Source of the DNA: Meiothermus sp.
GTDB taxonomy: Bacteria; Deinococcota; Deinococci; Deinococcales; Thermaceae
Assembly: GCF_025056915.1 (NCBI RefSeq)
Contig: NZ_JANWVH010000015.1
Span: 1-44,593, forward strand
Direction: 5' to 3'
Length of the DNA stretch: 44,593 nucleotides
A program made the translations under genes and the position numbers. Positions 30,998-35,534 of the stretch are shown here, piece after piece (position 1 is the first letter of the stretch; each line of letters begins with the position of its first letter). The notes under the pieces are model-generated. The model was not told the DNA's origin, did not search any database, and worked only from the letters and a program-made list of their open reading frames with translations.

Positions 30998-31057
30998 GCG
31001 AACCTCGAGGCCGACCGGAGGGATTCCGGGGCCACACAGAACCTCAGTGTAGCAGAG

Positions 31058-31930
31058 TTATTCCAGGGGTTCACCCCAGGGCCGTGGCAGACCTTCTTCA
31101 ATCAGCCGCATCAGGCGGGGCTCCTCGGCGGGAATGTTCTCGCGCAGGCGGGCCGCCGCCACAATGGGCATCCAGGCCTGGAGTTCGGCCAGGTCGAGGC
31201 CCGAAAAGGTCTGGTAGTGCTCGAGGTAGGTCTGGTAAAAAAGCTCGCGCTGCTGCATGATTTCCTCGCGCCCCGGCAGGTCGGGCGGGAGTTCGCTGTA
31301 AAGCACCAGCAAGGTGGTGCGGGCCATGTCGGCCAGGGGGTTGCCGCGCATGGCCCCAGGCCAGTCAATCACATGCACCCCCTCGTCTCCAACCAGCACG
31401 TTCTCGGGGTGGAAGTCGCCGTGGCAAAGCGCGGTTCCGTCGGGCAGGCGCTTTAGATGATGGAGCAGGGCCGTCCGCAACTCGAGCGGCAGTCGGCTGG
31501 CCTCGATGCGGCGAATGAGGTGAAGCCGCTGGGAGGGCAAATGCCCCGCCGACTTGTTGTGAAGCTGGCGGTGCAAGGCCCCCAGCATCTGGGCTGCAAA
31601 GCGCAGCCGGGTGGGGTCGGTCTGGATATAGTCGGTTAGGGGCACCCCCTTAATCCACTGCAACACCAGGCCCCAGCGCCCTTCAAACTGGAGCACATCC
31701 TCCACCCTGGCACAGGGCACCCCCATCAGCCAGACCTGCTGGGTGAGGCGGGCCTCGAGTTCGGCGTCGGCTTGGGAAAACTCGGGCCAGAATAGCTTGA
31801 GCACGTATCCATCGGCCCAGGCAAAGACCTCGGCATCGCGCCCTTGTCCGAGCCGTGTCAGCAACATCGCACCCAGGATACCTGCTTCCCAGGCCCTTTG
31901 CCTAAATACTTCGTGGGAATCCGGCTTCAT
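31058..31930 (-). CDS. Aminoglycoside phosphotransferase-fold kinase
   Basis: This is a 290-residue protein of the APH/choline-kinase-like superfamily. The catalytic loop is CHGDFHPENVLV (Asp base, Asn metal ligand) and the metal-binding aspartate is in HVIDWPGAMRGNP. The N-terminal lobe has RLGQGRDAEVFAWADGYVLKLF, with the presumed ATP-binding lysine. Members phosphorylate diverse small molecules, so antibiotic resistance should not be assumed. It lies 60 nt upstream of miaB on the same strand and diverges from the leu operon. No clear ribosome-binding site precedes the ATG. Confidence 0.82.
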   Translation of the reverse strand: MKPDSHEVFRQRAWEAGILGAMLLTRLGQGRDAEVFAWADGYVLKLFWPEFSQADAELEARLTQQVWLMGVPCARVEDVLQFEGRWGLVLQWIKGVPLTDYIQTDPTRLRFAAQMLGALHRQLHNKSAGHLPSQRLHLIRRIEASRLPLELRTALLHHLKRLPDGTALCHGDFHPENVLVGDEGVHVIDWPGAMRGNPLADMARTTLLVLYSELPPDLPGREEIMQQRELFYQTYLEHYQTFSGLDLAELQAWMPIVAAARLRENIPAEEPRLMRLIEEGLPRPWGEPLE

Positions 31931-31980
31931 ACCGGCGTTGATTGCCTTTGCCCAGCGTCCGGTTCACCTGGCCCCACAGC

Positions 31981-32009
31981 TTGACGTTTTGGTATACCAA
32001 ACTTATACT
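31981..32009 (+). promoter_or_regulatory. Consensus promoter of the leu operon with embedded operator
   Basis: TTGACG (31981-31986) and TATACT (32004-32009) are separated by exactly 17 bp. Positions 31988-32001 inside the spacer form the perfect 14-bp palindrome TTTGGTATACCAAA. Palindromes of the form TGGTNNACCA are typical of GntR-family repressors, but other regulators are possible. Occupancy here should block RNA polymerase directly. Confidence 0.85.
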
Positions 32010-32016
32010 CATGGCA

Positions 32017-32067
32017 ATGTTGGCTCGAGTCAAGCAGCACCTACTAAGCCCCGCTCGAGGGGTCTAG
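32017..32067 (+). CDS. leuL: leu operon leader peptide (16 residues)
   Basis: The frame reads [16 protein letters not shown] and stops at TAG. Its ATG begins 7 nt after the -10 box, so it should lie at the very 5' end of the mRNA and be translated without a Shine-Dalgarno site. An in-frame ATG two codons upstream (32011) would fall before the expected transcription start. Leucines 9 and 10 are encoded by tandem CTA, a codon rare in this G+C-rich window. They sit directly before the first arm of the attenuator. Ribosome stalling there during leucine shortage would favour the antiterminator. Confidence 0.8.
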
Positions 32068-32115
32068 TCGGCTGCAGGCAGGACCCCAGGGCACCGCGCC
32101 TCTGGGGTCTTGTTA
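32048..32115 (+). terminator. Transcription attenuator of the leu operon
   Basis: Four segments can be assigned: 1, CCCC at 32049-32052; 2, GGGGTC at 32059-32064; 3, GACCCC at 32082-32087; 4, GGGGTC at 32104-32109. 1:2 is a protector hairpin, 2:3 a perfect 6-bp antiterminator. 3:4 is the core of the long terminator GACCCCAG.../...CTGGGGTC, followed by TTGTTA. The tandem leucine codons end 3 nt before segment 1. The T-run is short, so the terminator may be leaky. Confidence 0.8.
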
Positions 32116-32146
32116 TCGGAGGTTGAGCGCACAGGAGGCACACCAA

Positions 32147-33571
32147 ATGGGAAAAAGCTTGTACGAGAAAGTCTGGGAGACCCACGCCCTCCGCACCCTG
32201 CCCAACGGGCAGACCCAGCTCTTCATTGACACCCACCTGATTCACGAAGTCACCAGCCCCCAGGCCTTCGGGATGCTGCGCGACCTGGGCCTCAAGGTGC
32301 GCTTCCCCGAGCGTACCTTTGCCACGGTGGATCACATCGTGCCCACCCATTCGCTGCTCGAGCCCTTCGCCGACCCCCAAGCCGACGAGATGATCCGCCA
32401 GCTCCGCAAGAACGTGCAGGAGTTTGGCATCACCTTCTTCGACGTAAGCTCTGGGCTTCAGGGCATCGTGCACGTGATTGGCCCGGAAAACGGCATTACC
32501 CAGCCCGGCATGACCATCGCCTGTGGCGACTCCCACACCTCCACCCACGGGGCCTTTGGGGCCATTGCCTTCGGGATTGGCACCACCCAGGTGCGCGATG
32601 TGCTGGCCACCCAGACCATGGCGGTGAGCAAGCTCAAGGTGCGGCGCATCAACGTAAACGGCCAGCTGCGTCCGGGGGTCTATGCCAAGGACGTTATCCT
32701 GCACATCATCAAGGTGCTGGGGGTGAATGGGGGCATCGGCTACGCCTACGAGTACGGCGGTGAGGTCTTCGACCGCTTCAGCATGGAAGAGCGCATGACC
32801 GTCTGCAACATGAGCATCGAGGGCGGGGCCCGCATTGGCTACGTCAACCCCGACCAGACCACCTTCGACTATCTGAAGGGCCGCCCCTATGCCCCCAAAG
32901 GCGCCGAGTGGGACAGGGCCGTGGAACGCTGGAAGGCCCTGGCCTCCGACCCCGATGCCCACTACGACGACGTGGTCAACATCCGCGCCGAGGACATCGC
33001 CCCTACCGTCACCTGGGGCATCAACCCCGGCCAGGGGTGCGCCATTACCGACCGCGTCCCCGACCCCGCCCTCTACCCCGAGGCCGAGCGGGCCGGCCTG
33101 GAGGAAGCCCTCAAACACATGAAGCTCCAGCCTGGCCAGCCCATCAAGGGGGTCAAGGTAGATGTGGCCTTTCTGGGCAGCTGCACCAACGGTCGCCTTT
33201 CGGACTTCCGCGAGGCCGCCAAATACCTCAAGGGCCGCAAGGTAGCCCCCGGCGTGCGGGCCATTGCGGTACCGGGCTCCCAGCAGGTGGCCCAGGCGTG
33301 CGAGGAGGAAGGCATTGCCGAAATCTTCCGCCAGGCCGGGTTCGAGTGGCGCGGGGCCGGTTGCAGCATGTGCCTGGCCATGAACCCCGACAAGCTCGTA
33401 GGGGACGAGCTGTGCGCCTCTTCTTCCAACCGCAACTTCAAAGGCCGCCAGGGGAGTGCCACCGGGCGCACCATTCTGATGAGCCCGGTCATGGTGGTGG
33501 CCGCTGCCGTGACCGGCAGGGTCAGCGATGCCAGGGAAGTGTTTGGGGTGGGCGAGCTGGTCGGTGCGTAA
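32147..33571 (+). CDS. leuC: 3-Isopropylmalate dehydratase large subunit
   Basis: LeuC, with LeuD, isomerises 2-isopropylmalate to 3-isopropylmalate in leucine synthesis. The 474-residue protein carries the [4Fe-4S] ligands Cys346 (LGSCTNGR), Cys406 and Cys409 ([11 protein letters not shown]). Active-site stretches include [23 protein letters not shown], and [26 protein letters not shown] start at the ATG at 32147, 8 nt after AGGAGG, rather than the upstream TTG at 32123. It is the first structural gene of the attenuated leu operon. Confidence 0.97.

Positions 33572-33861: not shown

Positions 33862-33862
<1 letters not shown>
33650..33862 (+). CDS. Small membrane protein inside the leu operon
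   Basis: This 70-residue protein has two hydrophobic segments (about residues 6-27 and 37-60, LIRGVALVAASVLLSIATLGLW and VLSWVVFAVGFTLSAIAAIAGIWGIL) and a charged end (FFRDKEGK). I start at the TTG at 33650, 5 nt after AAGGAGAGG; a GTG at 33623 is an alternative. Its TAA shares a base with the leuD ATG (TAATG), so the two are translationally coupled. No family is recognised. Its place between leuC and leuD, whose products form one enzyme, is unusual. Confidence 0.65.

Positions 33863-35534
<1,672 letters not shown>

Follow-up and report, generated by a model that had tools for sequence, protein, structure and literature searches.

A probable leucine attenuator with a predicted leaderless leader peptide upstream of leuCDB in Meiothermus and related bacteria

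The window analyzed here is a whole stretch of 44,593 nucleotides from Meiothermus sp. (contig NZ_JANWVH010000015.1), read on the forward strand. It carries leuC, leuD and leuB, and the short region ahead of leuC holds a promoter, a small reading frame and three predicted, competing RNA pairings. These features are as follows.

31981..31986, forward strand: -35 box TTGACG (direct reading and promoter scan).
31986..32002, forward strand: palindrome GTTTTGGTATACCAAAC in the -35/-10 spacer, with core TTTGGTATACCAAA at 31988-32001; putative GntR/FCD operator.
32004..32009, forward strand: -10 box TATACT (direct reading and promoter scan).
32016..32018, forward strand: predicted transcription start, at the leader ATG or no more than about 2 nt from it, placed by the 7-nt gap behind the -10 box.
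32017..32067, forward strand: leader peptide frame, 16 codons plus a TAG stop at 32065-32067 (direct reading and relatives).
32041..32046, forward strand: control codons CTA CTA, codons 9-10 of the frame (CTA in 51 of 52 leaders).
32034..32075, forward strand: predicted protector hairpin 1:2, with stems 32034-38/32071-75, 32043-46/32065-68 and 32048-52/32059-63.
32059..32087, forward strand: putative antiterminator 2:3, GGGGTC at 32059-32064 with GACCCC at 32082-32087 (own-versus-foreign pairing test).
32077..32115, forward strand: terminator 3:4, core GACCCC at 32082-32087 with GGGGTC at 32104-32109, and a weak T-rich tail (fold and covariation).
32147..33571, forward strand: leuC, 3-isopropylmalate dehydratase large subunit (TIGR00170, 634.8 bits against a cut-off of 560.25).
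33862..34467, forward strand: leuD (TIGR00171, 120 bits against a cut-off of 116.25).
34482..35534, forward strand: leuB (TIGR00169, 513.7 bits against a cut-off of 353.2).

A preliminary description of this region had reported a consensus promoter, a 7-nt gap, an ATG opening a frame of 16 codons that includes CTACTA, and three pairings in competition, and direct reading places all of them, ahead of leuCDB, where that description had put them. The spacer between TTGACG and TATACT is 17 nt, and a further 7 nt lead to the ATG at 32017; this TTGACG-17-TATACT arrangement was the one promoter-like site found by the promoter scan between 31000 and 33000, where shuffled sequences gave a mean of 0.2. 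Segment 2 (GGGGTC) begins 12 nt past the last CTA and ends at the stop codon of the frame, from which 79 nt remain to the start of leuC. The fold of 32005-32125 reaches -56.6 kcal/mol (z -3.5), equaled by none of 200 shuffles. One detail of the preliminary description did not survive, namely that the CTA codons end 3 nt ahead of the protector hairpin: the fold puts the start of the inner stem at 32048, and ACUA at 32043-32046 is itself predicted to pair with UAGU at 32065-32068, stop codon included. A simple terminator scan of 31000-33000 flagged no terminator, the window's own included; its T-rich stretch (TCTTGTTAT) is weak and in part pulled into the stem, and many close relatives have TTTTT. 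No match to Rfam (4227 families) reached the gathering threshold at the leader, and a relaxed threshold over 31900-32200 returned two chance-level matches only (E 5-9). A second in-frame ATG lies at 32011, 1 nt past the -10 box. Initiation at that codon was ruled out, as it is absent from other Meiothermus-group leaders and lies upstream of the expected +1; an ATG like it occurs in three leaders of other genera (L023, L126 and L127).

The same arrangement recurs well beyond this genome. A search of 61 genomes identified LeuC in 56, one of which (G057, L029) was excluded, its sequence ending about 50 nt upstream of leuC. A short leader frame was present in 52 of the 55 readable leuC upstream regions, counts that come from related genomes and are not independent observations, and was absent from three regions of one family (L204-L206). 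Conservation of the frame and of its CTA codons, which the preliminary description had proposed as a check, and of the promoter-to-ATG spacing extends through Meiothermus, its sister genera and genus g5 of the same family (which we take to be Thermus), and also into further families of the order. Genus g1, that of the window's genome, is taken to be Meiothermus, as the leuC upstream sequences of G001 (L004), in the same genus, and of L031, from a record named Meiothermus granaticius, are identical. Fifty-one of the 52 leaders start 6-10 nt after a recognizable -10 box. Automatic reading placed 36 leaders at this distance with a -35 box at 17-18 nt, the gap being 7 nt in 24, 8 nt in five, 10 nt in five, and 6 and 9 nt in one each; the five leaders with a gap of 10 would be expected to carry a few nucleotides of 5' UTR. 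TTGAC[GCT] stands 17-18 nt ahead of TA[TG]ACT in all 22 leaders of genera g1, g2 and g4 (the Meiothermus group), while all 14 g5 leaders have TTGACC, a spacer of 17-18 nt, TAGGCT or a similar hexamer, and a gap of 8. In L203 the gap, read by eye, is 7 nt. The exception is L111 (G019), where the leader is intact and no recognizable -35/-10 promoter was found upstream. Its upstream sequence is unrelated to the others and looks like the end of a mobile element.

A combined definition was drawn up, consisting of the promoter, a gap of 6-10 nt, a frame of 10-40 codons and at least one CTA. It matched 50 of the 55 real regions, L203 among them, and none of 2200 dinucleotide shuffles; dropping the CTA condition changed the figures to 51 of 55 and three of 2200. 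Across the 22 Meiothermus-group regions, conservation upstream of the leader starts at the -35 box, rising from 0.36-0.43 upstream of about -41 (relative to the leader ATG) to 0.50 at -40 to -31 and 0.85 at -30 to -21. As for the neighbors of the leader, two g5 loci (L113 and L124) have an upstream tRNA-Leu(CAG) gene on the opposite strand, and L128 has an upstream tRNA-Pro(GGG) gene.

The preliminary description had also held that initiation on the leader peptide would need intact 70S ribosomes and not a Shine-Dalgarno site. In agreement with this, an SD-like 4-mer was found within 20 nt of the leader start in only five of 52 leaders, the window's own having none, versus all 22 of the Meiothermus-group leuC starts that were checked. 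Because the gap between the -10 box and the ATG is 7 nt and an SD-like site is mostly missing, the leader peptide is very likely leaderless. Such an arrangement has precedent in the phylum: in Deinococcus radiodurans, a -10 motif (TANNNT) is reported about 6-7 bp upstream of ORFs, and leaderless expression with -10-adjacent ORFs is described as common in Deinococcus-Thermus (PMC12340547). The requirement for 70S ribosomes in leaderless initiation rests on the general literature, as discussed in PMC9031893.

The leader frames have a distinctive leucine codon usage. In 45 distinct frames, leucine accounts for 105 of 737 non-start codons, and 71 of these 105 are CTA; in nine window coding sequences, CTA is 12 of 315 leucine codons. 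The one leader of 52 without CTA is L021 (G004), which also lies unusually far (168 nt) from leuC. Several leaders, e.g., L004, L014 and L022, have a single leucine codon. Conservation of CTA merely for pairing with a TAG stop was ruled out, CTA being kept in 10 of 11 leaders that end in TGA or TAA. The leuL leader of Escherichia coli carries CTACTACTACTA, with the same CTA codon. A theoretical study argued that CUA suits E. coli better as a control codon than any other leucine codon, and Salmonella experiments cited there found that replacement with CUG lowered sensitivity (PMC1183508).

Support for the three pairings is graded. A terminator was found in 50 of the 52 leaders, the exceptions being L028 and L123. 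For covariation, an alignment of 35 rows (32 distinct) was used, from which L021, L123 and genera outside the family were excluded. The terminator pairing 3:4 scored 0.317 versus 0.150 when shuffled, with none of 500 shuffles as high, and stood above all six slides; the terminator thus appears firmly supported. In this alignment, the one that is column-comparable, the antiterminator pairing 2:3 scored 0.098, the same as its shuffles (220 of 500 reached its value); of its six pairs, four barely vary, and 11 rows have gaps in two of the columns. A plain tally of column pairs for 1:2 in the same 35 rows was uninformative or negative. The preliminary description had named compensatory changes as a check on its pairings, and by this measure the expectation held for 3:4, while 2:3 lacked significant covariation by alignment column.

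Different clades use different words for segments 2 and 3, and the pairing was also assessed by setting each leader's own segments against foreign ones. Own 2:3 pairs averaged -15.9 kcal/mol and foreign pairs -13.4 kcal/mol in 26 leader types (permutation p 5e-5); none of 20,000 permutations matched the value for 14 clade representatives, and p was 0.001 for eight family members. By this comparison, the 2:3 pairing is significant. It is so on average: the own segment 2 ranks first in only four of 26 types, and last or near-last for L128, L129 and L130. In individual leaders, no more than 10 of 200 shuffles matched 2:3 in just 22 of 50 (and in two of 13 from g5), and no more than five of 100 matched the fold ahead of the terminator in 23 of 50. 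For 1:2, own-versus-foreign comparison gave p 0.08 in the 26 types, 0.007 in the 14 clade representatives and 0.0014 in the eight family members. The antiterminator thus appears to be supported on average, and support for the protector is confined to the narrower sets.

A second element is superimposed on the promoter. The palindrome is found near the leader in all 22 genomes of g1, g2 and g4, exactly in 20 and with one mismatch in two, and GGTATACC was found in the 60 nt upstream of none of the 30 leaders outside these genera. Within Meiothermus, an exact TTTGGTATACCAAA occurs in 17 of 18 genomes, each time at leuC (reversed control, 0); the only extra exact copy, in G008 (L131), could be linked to no obvious target. 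A regulator with GntR and FCD domains is encoded in 20 of the 22 genomes of these genera (missing from G004 and G015), in one of 27 g5 genomes and in the g3 genome not at all (0 of 1); in G033, the sole g5 genome with the regulator, the palindrome is absent. Among the 23 regulator loci of 27 that could be read (L194-L197 could not), a site within two mismatches of TTGGTATACCAA lies just upstream of the regulator in 20, and the GGTATACC core in one more. In G052, from another family, the best regulator match stands directly ahead of leuC. Because palindrome and regulator co-occur and GGTATACC is present in the regulator's own promoter, we infer that a GntR/FCD repressor binds the palindrome, by which it would repress both leuCDB and its own gene.

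The window genome's own gntR gene lies at G000:C113:28584-29234 (L177), with GGTATACC in its promoter, a Cys/Met-metabolism-like ORF on one side and TctC/TctB-like ORFs on the other (names assigned by eye). Some places in the same genome that resemble the operator with one mismatch (L215-L217) proved unconvincing, and a relaxed operator pattern gave 11 places versus 10 for the reversed control. In genus g2, operator-like sites (TTTGGTGTACCAAA and its reverse complement) stand ahead of an aspartokinase-like ORF (L165 and L168) and of a PEP-carboxylase-like ORF (L166 and L167), both named by eye. A second DAHP synthase gene of Meiothermus has GGTATACC 74-84 nt ahead of its estimated start in all seven loci fetched (L263-L265 and L270-L273).

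The anatomy, its conservation, the codon bias, the absence of a Shine-Dalgarno site and the covariation of the terminator are observed, and they make it highly probable, on sequence grounds, that the region is a ribosome-mediated leucine transcription attenuator for leuCDB with a leaderless leader peptide. The course of events set out here relies on an inferred start site, ribosome stalling, leucine response and repressor binding. RNA polymerase would start at the AUG at 32017 or within about two bases of it, and a ribosome would load onto this free 5' AUG without a Shine-Dalgarno site. Segment 2 lies between the CTA codons and the stop, and thus a stalled ribosome should leave it free while a ribosome at the stop codon should cover it. 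When charged tRNA-Leu for the rare CUA codon is scarce, the ribosome would stall at codons 9-10 and keep hairpin 1:2 open; segment 2 would then pair with segment 3, no terminator would form, and leuCDB would be transcribed. When leucine is plentiful, the ribosome would proceed to the UAG beside segment 2, and 3:4 would form, ending transcription about 100 nt from its start. In Meiothermus and two sister genera, the operator in the spacer, probably for the GntR/FCD repressor, would add a second layer.

Several other explanations were weighed against this reading. The attenuator could be real and its leader not leaderless, if transcription started further upstream, for example from TGGTATACC (31990-31998, inside the palindrome), which resembles an extended -10 element and would give a 5' UTR of about 12 nt. 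Sequences within two mismatches of TTTGGTATACCAAA do outnumber the reversed control in 17 of the 18 Meiothermus genomes, but we regard such a start as unlikely: the distance of 17-18 nt kept between TTGAC[GCT] and TA[TG]ACT in all 22 Meiothermus-group leaders suits TA[TG]ACT rather than TATACC, none of the 30 leaders from other genera has GGTATACC in the 60 nt upstream although those of g5 still keep the -35 box, the -10 box and the 8-nt gap, and a 12-nt UTR would be devoid of a Shine-Dalgarno site too. The palindrome and its GntR-type repressor might alternatively be the main control, with the hairpin a fixed terminator that sets a basal level. The presence of the palindrome throughout the 22 genomes of g1, g2 and g4 (exact in 20, with one mismatch in two) and of the regulator gene in 20 of them speaks for this, but the absence of the palindrome from all 30 leaders elsewhere, together with the fact that a fixed terminator has no need of a conserved CTA-bearing frame, makes the idea improbable.

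It is more doubtful still that the short frame acts on the translation of leuC, by coupling or reinitiation, and not on termination. Leaderless upstream frames are reported to be able to affect downstream translation (PMC9031893); here, however, the frame stops 79 nt short of leuC, 50 of 52 leaders have a terminator hairpin in between, and an SD-like site belonging to leuC itself was present in all 22 cases checked. Finally, promoter, frame and hairpin could be unrelated and lie together by chance. The short length alone favors this, and it is refuted by the conservation, 50 of 55 real regions versus none of the 2200 shuffles matching the combined definition.

Leaders of this predicted leaderless build are not confined to leuC in this organism. 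A survey of the window's genome with one strict promoter-plus-ATG pattern returned 17 places versus one for the reversed control. Among these, a threonine leader, MVWYTTTTT, precedes the aspartate-semialdehyde dehydrogenase gene asd (L161, G000:C179:3696, minus strand), and an aromatic leader, MPTQRVSASQNTFFFGYFYWPGVPVRLA, precedes a DAHP synthase gene (L148, G000:C10:4254, minus strand); terminator-like hairpins, read by eye, follow both. The threonine leader or a near variant occurs in all 17 Meiothermus genomes searched (G000-G016; L218-L234), always with GGTATACC inside the frame, where it encodes Trp-Tyr-Thr. An aromatic leader of the FGYFYW type occurs in 13 of 14 Meiothermus loci (L244-L257), the fourteenth (L247) being of incomplete sequence. 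Outside the genus, a threonine-run leader was found at two of nine asd loci (L238 and L239), and no FGYFYW leader at the three closest DAHP synthase loci (L258-L260). Two further places in the survey are of a different kind. At L160 (G000:C158:57353, minus strand), a leaderless frame ends in LRGYL-TGA; it resembles prfB with its programmed frameshift. At L157 (G000:C138:10487), a leaderless frame of 30 codons overlaps the beginning of an argininosuccinate-synthase-like ORF (named by eye).

Leader-peptide attenuation of leu genes is classical, and in the leu attenuator of E. coli and Salmonella, alternative pairings and a terminator lie ahead of the leu genes. E. coli leuL resembles the present leader in being a leader peptide with CTA control codons; it differs in preceding leuA and in having a 5' UTR, whereas here the frame lies at the predicted 5' end and ahead of leuCDB. 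Mycobacterial leaderless short ORFs with polycysteine runs are reportedly cysteine-responsive attenuators, alike in their leaderless build and different in responding to cysteine. Among the literature matches listed, no title dealt with a leader peptide of leuC in Meiothermus or Thermus; a 1998 paper in Gene is said to treat the leuC, leuD and leuB genes of T. thermophilus and may describe a leader.

Five leaders of Streptomyces lividans TK24 (LeuL1, LeuL2, trpL1, trpL2 and ilvL) are described as short, rich in codons for the end product, transcribed leaderless and located ahead of amino-acid or tRNA-ligase genes (PMC8079986). They belong to another phylum, the two leu leaders precede leuS and leuA, and LeuL1 is reported to be without a typical terminator (PMC8079986); a preferred CTA leucine codon and an operator in the promoter spacer set the Meiothermus leader apart from them. 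In Sinorhizobium meliloti, the 5' end of the trpL attenuator RNA (rnTrpL, encoding peTrpL) is reported to coincide with the leader peptide ATG (PMC7298713), but that system concerns tryptophan, is found in Alphaproteobacteria and has trans-acting roles. A leucine-rich attenuator peptide is likewise described as repressing branched-chain amino acid synthesis in Staphylococcus aureus, a member of the Firmicutes in which it is combined with CodY. The -10-adjacent leaderless genes of Deinococcus-Thermus, with TANNNT some 6-7 bp ahead of the ORF, share the arrangement seen here, and the main text of that report has no occurrence of "leader peptide" or "attenuat" (PMC12340547). According to a survey from 2010, and as far as its authors knew, leader-peptide systems had been demonstrated only in Proteobacteria and Actinobacteria before its own cases in Firmicutes, an atypical ermC leader aside (PMC2965389). 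Leaderless leader peptides themselves have thus been reported already, and what the present sequences would add is a conserved leaderless leu attenuator in Deinococcus-Thermus, with a CTA bias and a likely GntR layer.

The ribosome-mediated attenuator proposed here would be a conserved Deinococcus-Thermus case in a format that has no room for a Shine-Dalgarno site. At about 100 nt, it would also be a compact natural sensor with which to ask if leaderless initiation keeps pace with RNA polymerase. The choice of CTA, common to E. coli and these bacteria, fits the theory of a sensitive leucine sensor (PMC1183508). Perhaps, and we offer this tentatively, leaderless attenuation is the standard format of amino-acid control in Meiothermus, or even in the whole order, for leucine, threonine and the aromatic amino acids, with a GntR-family repressor layered on top, its operator placed in the promoter spacer of leuC and within the leader frame of asd as Trp-Tyr-Thr codons. 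If so, the switch would read not only charged tRNA, but also the cell's capacity for initiation on a bare 5' AUG.
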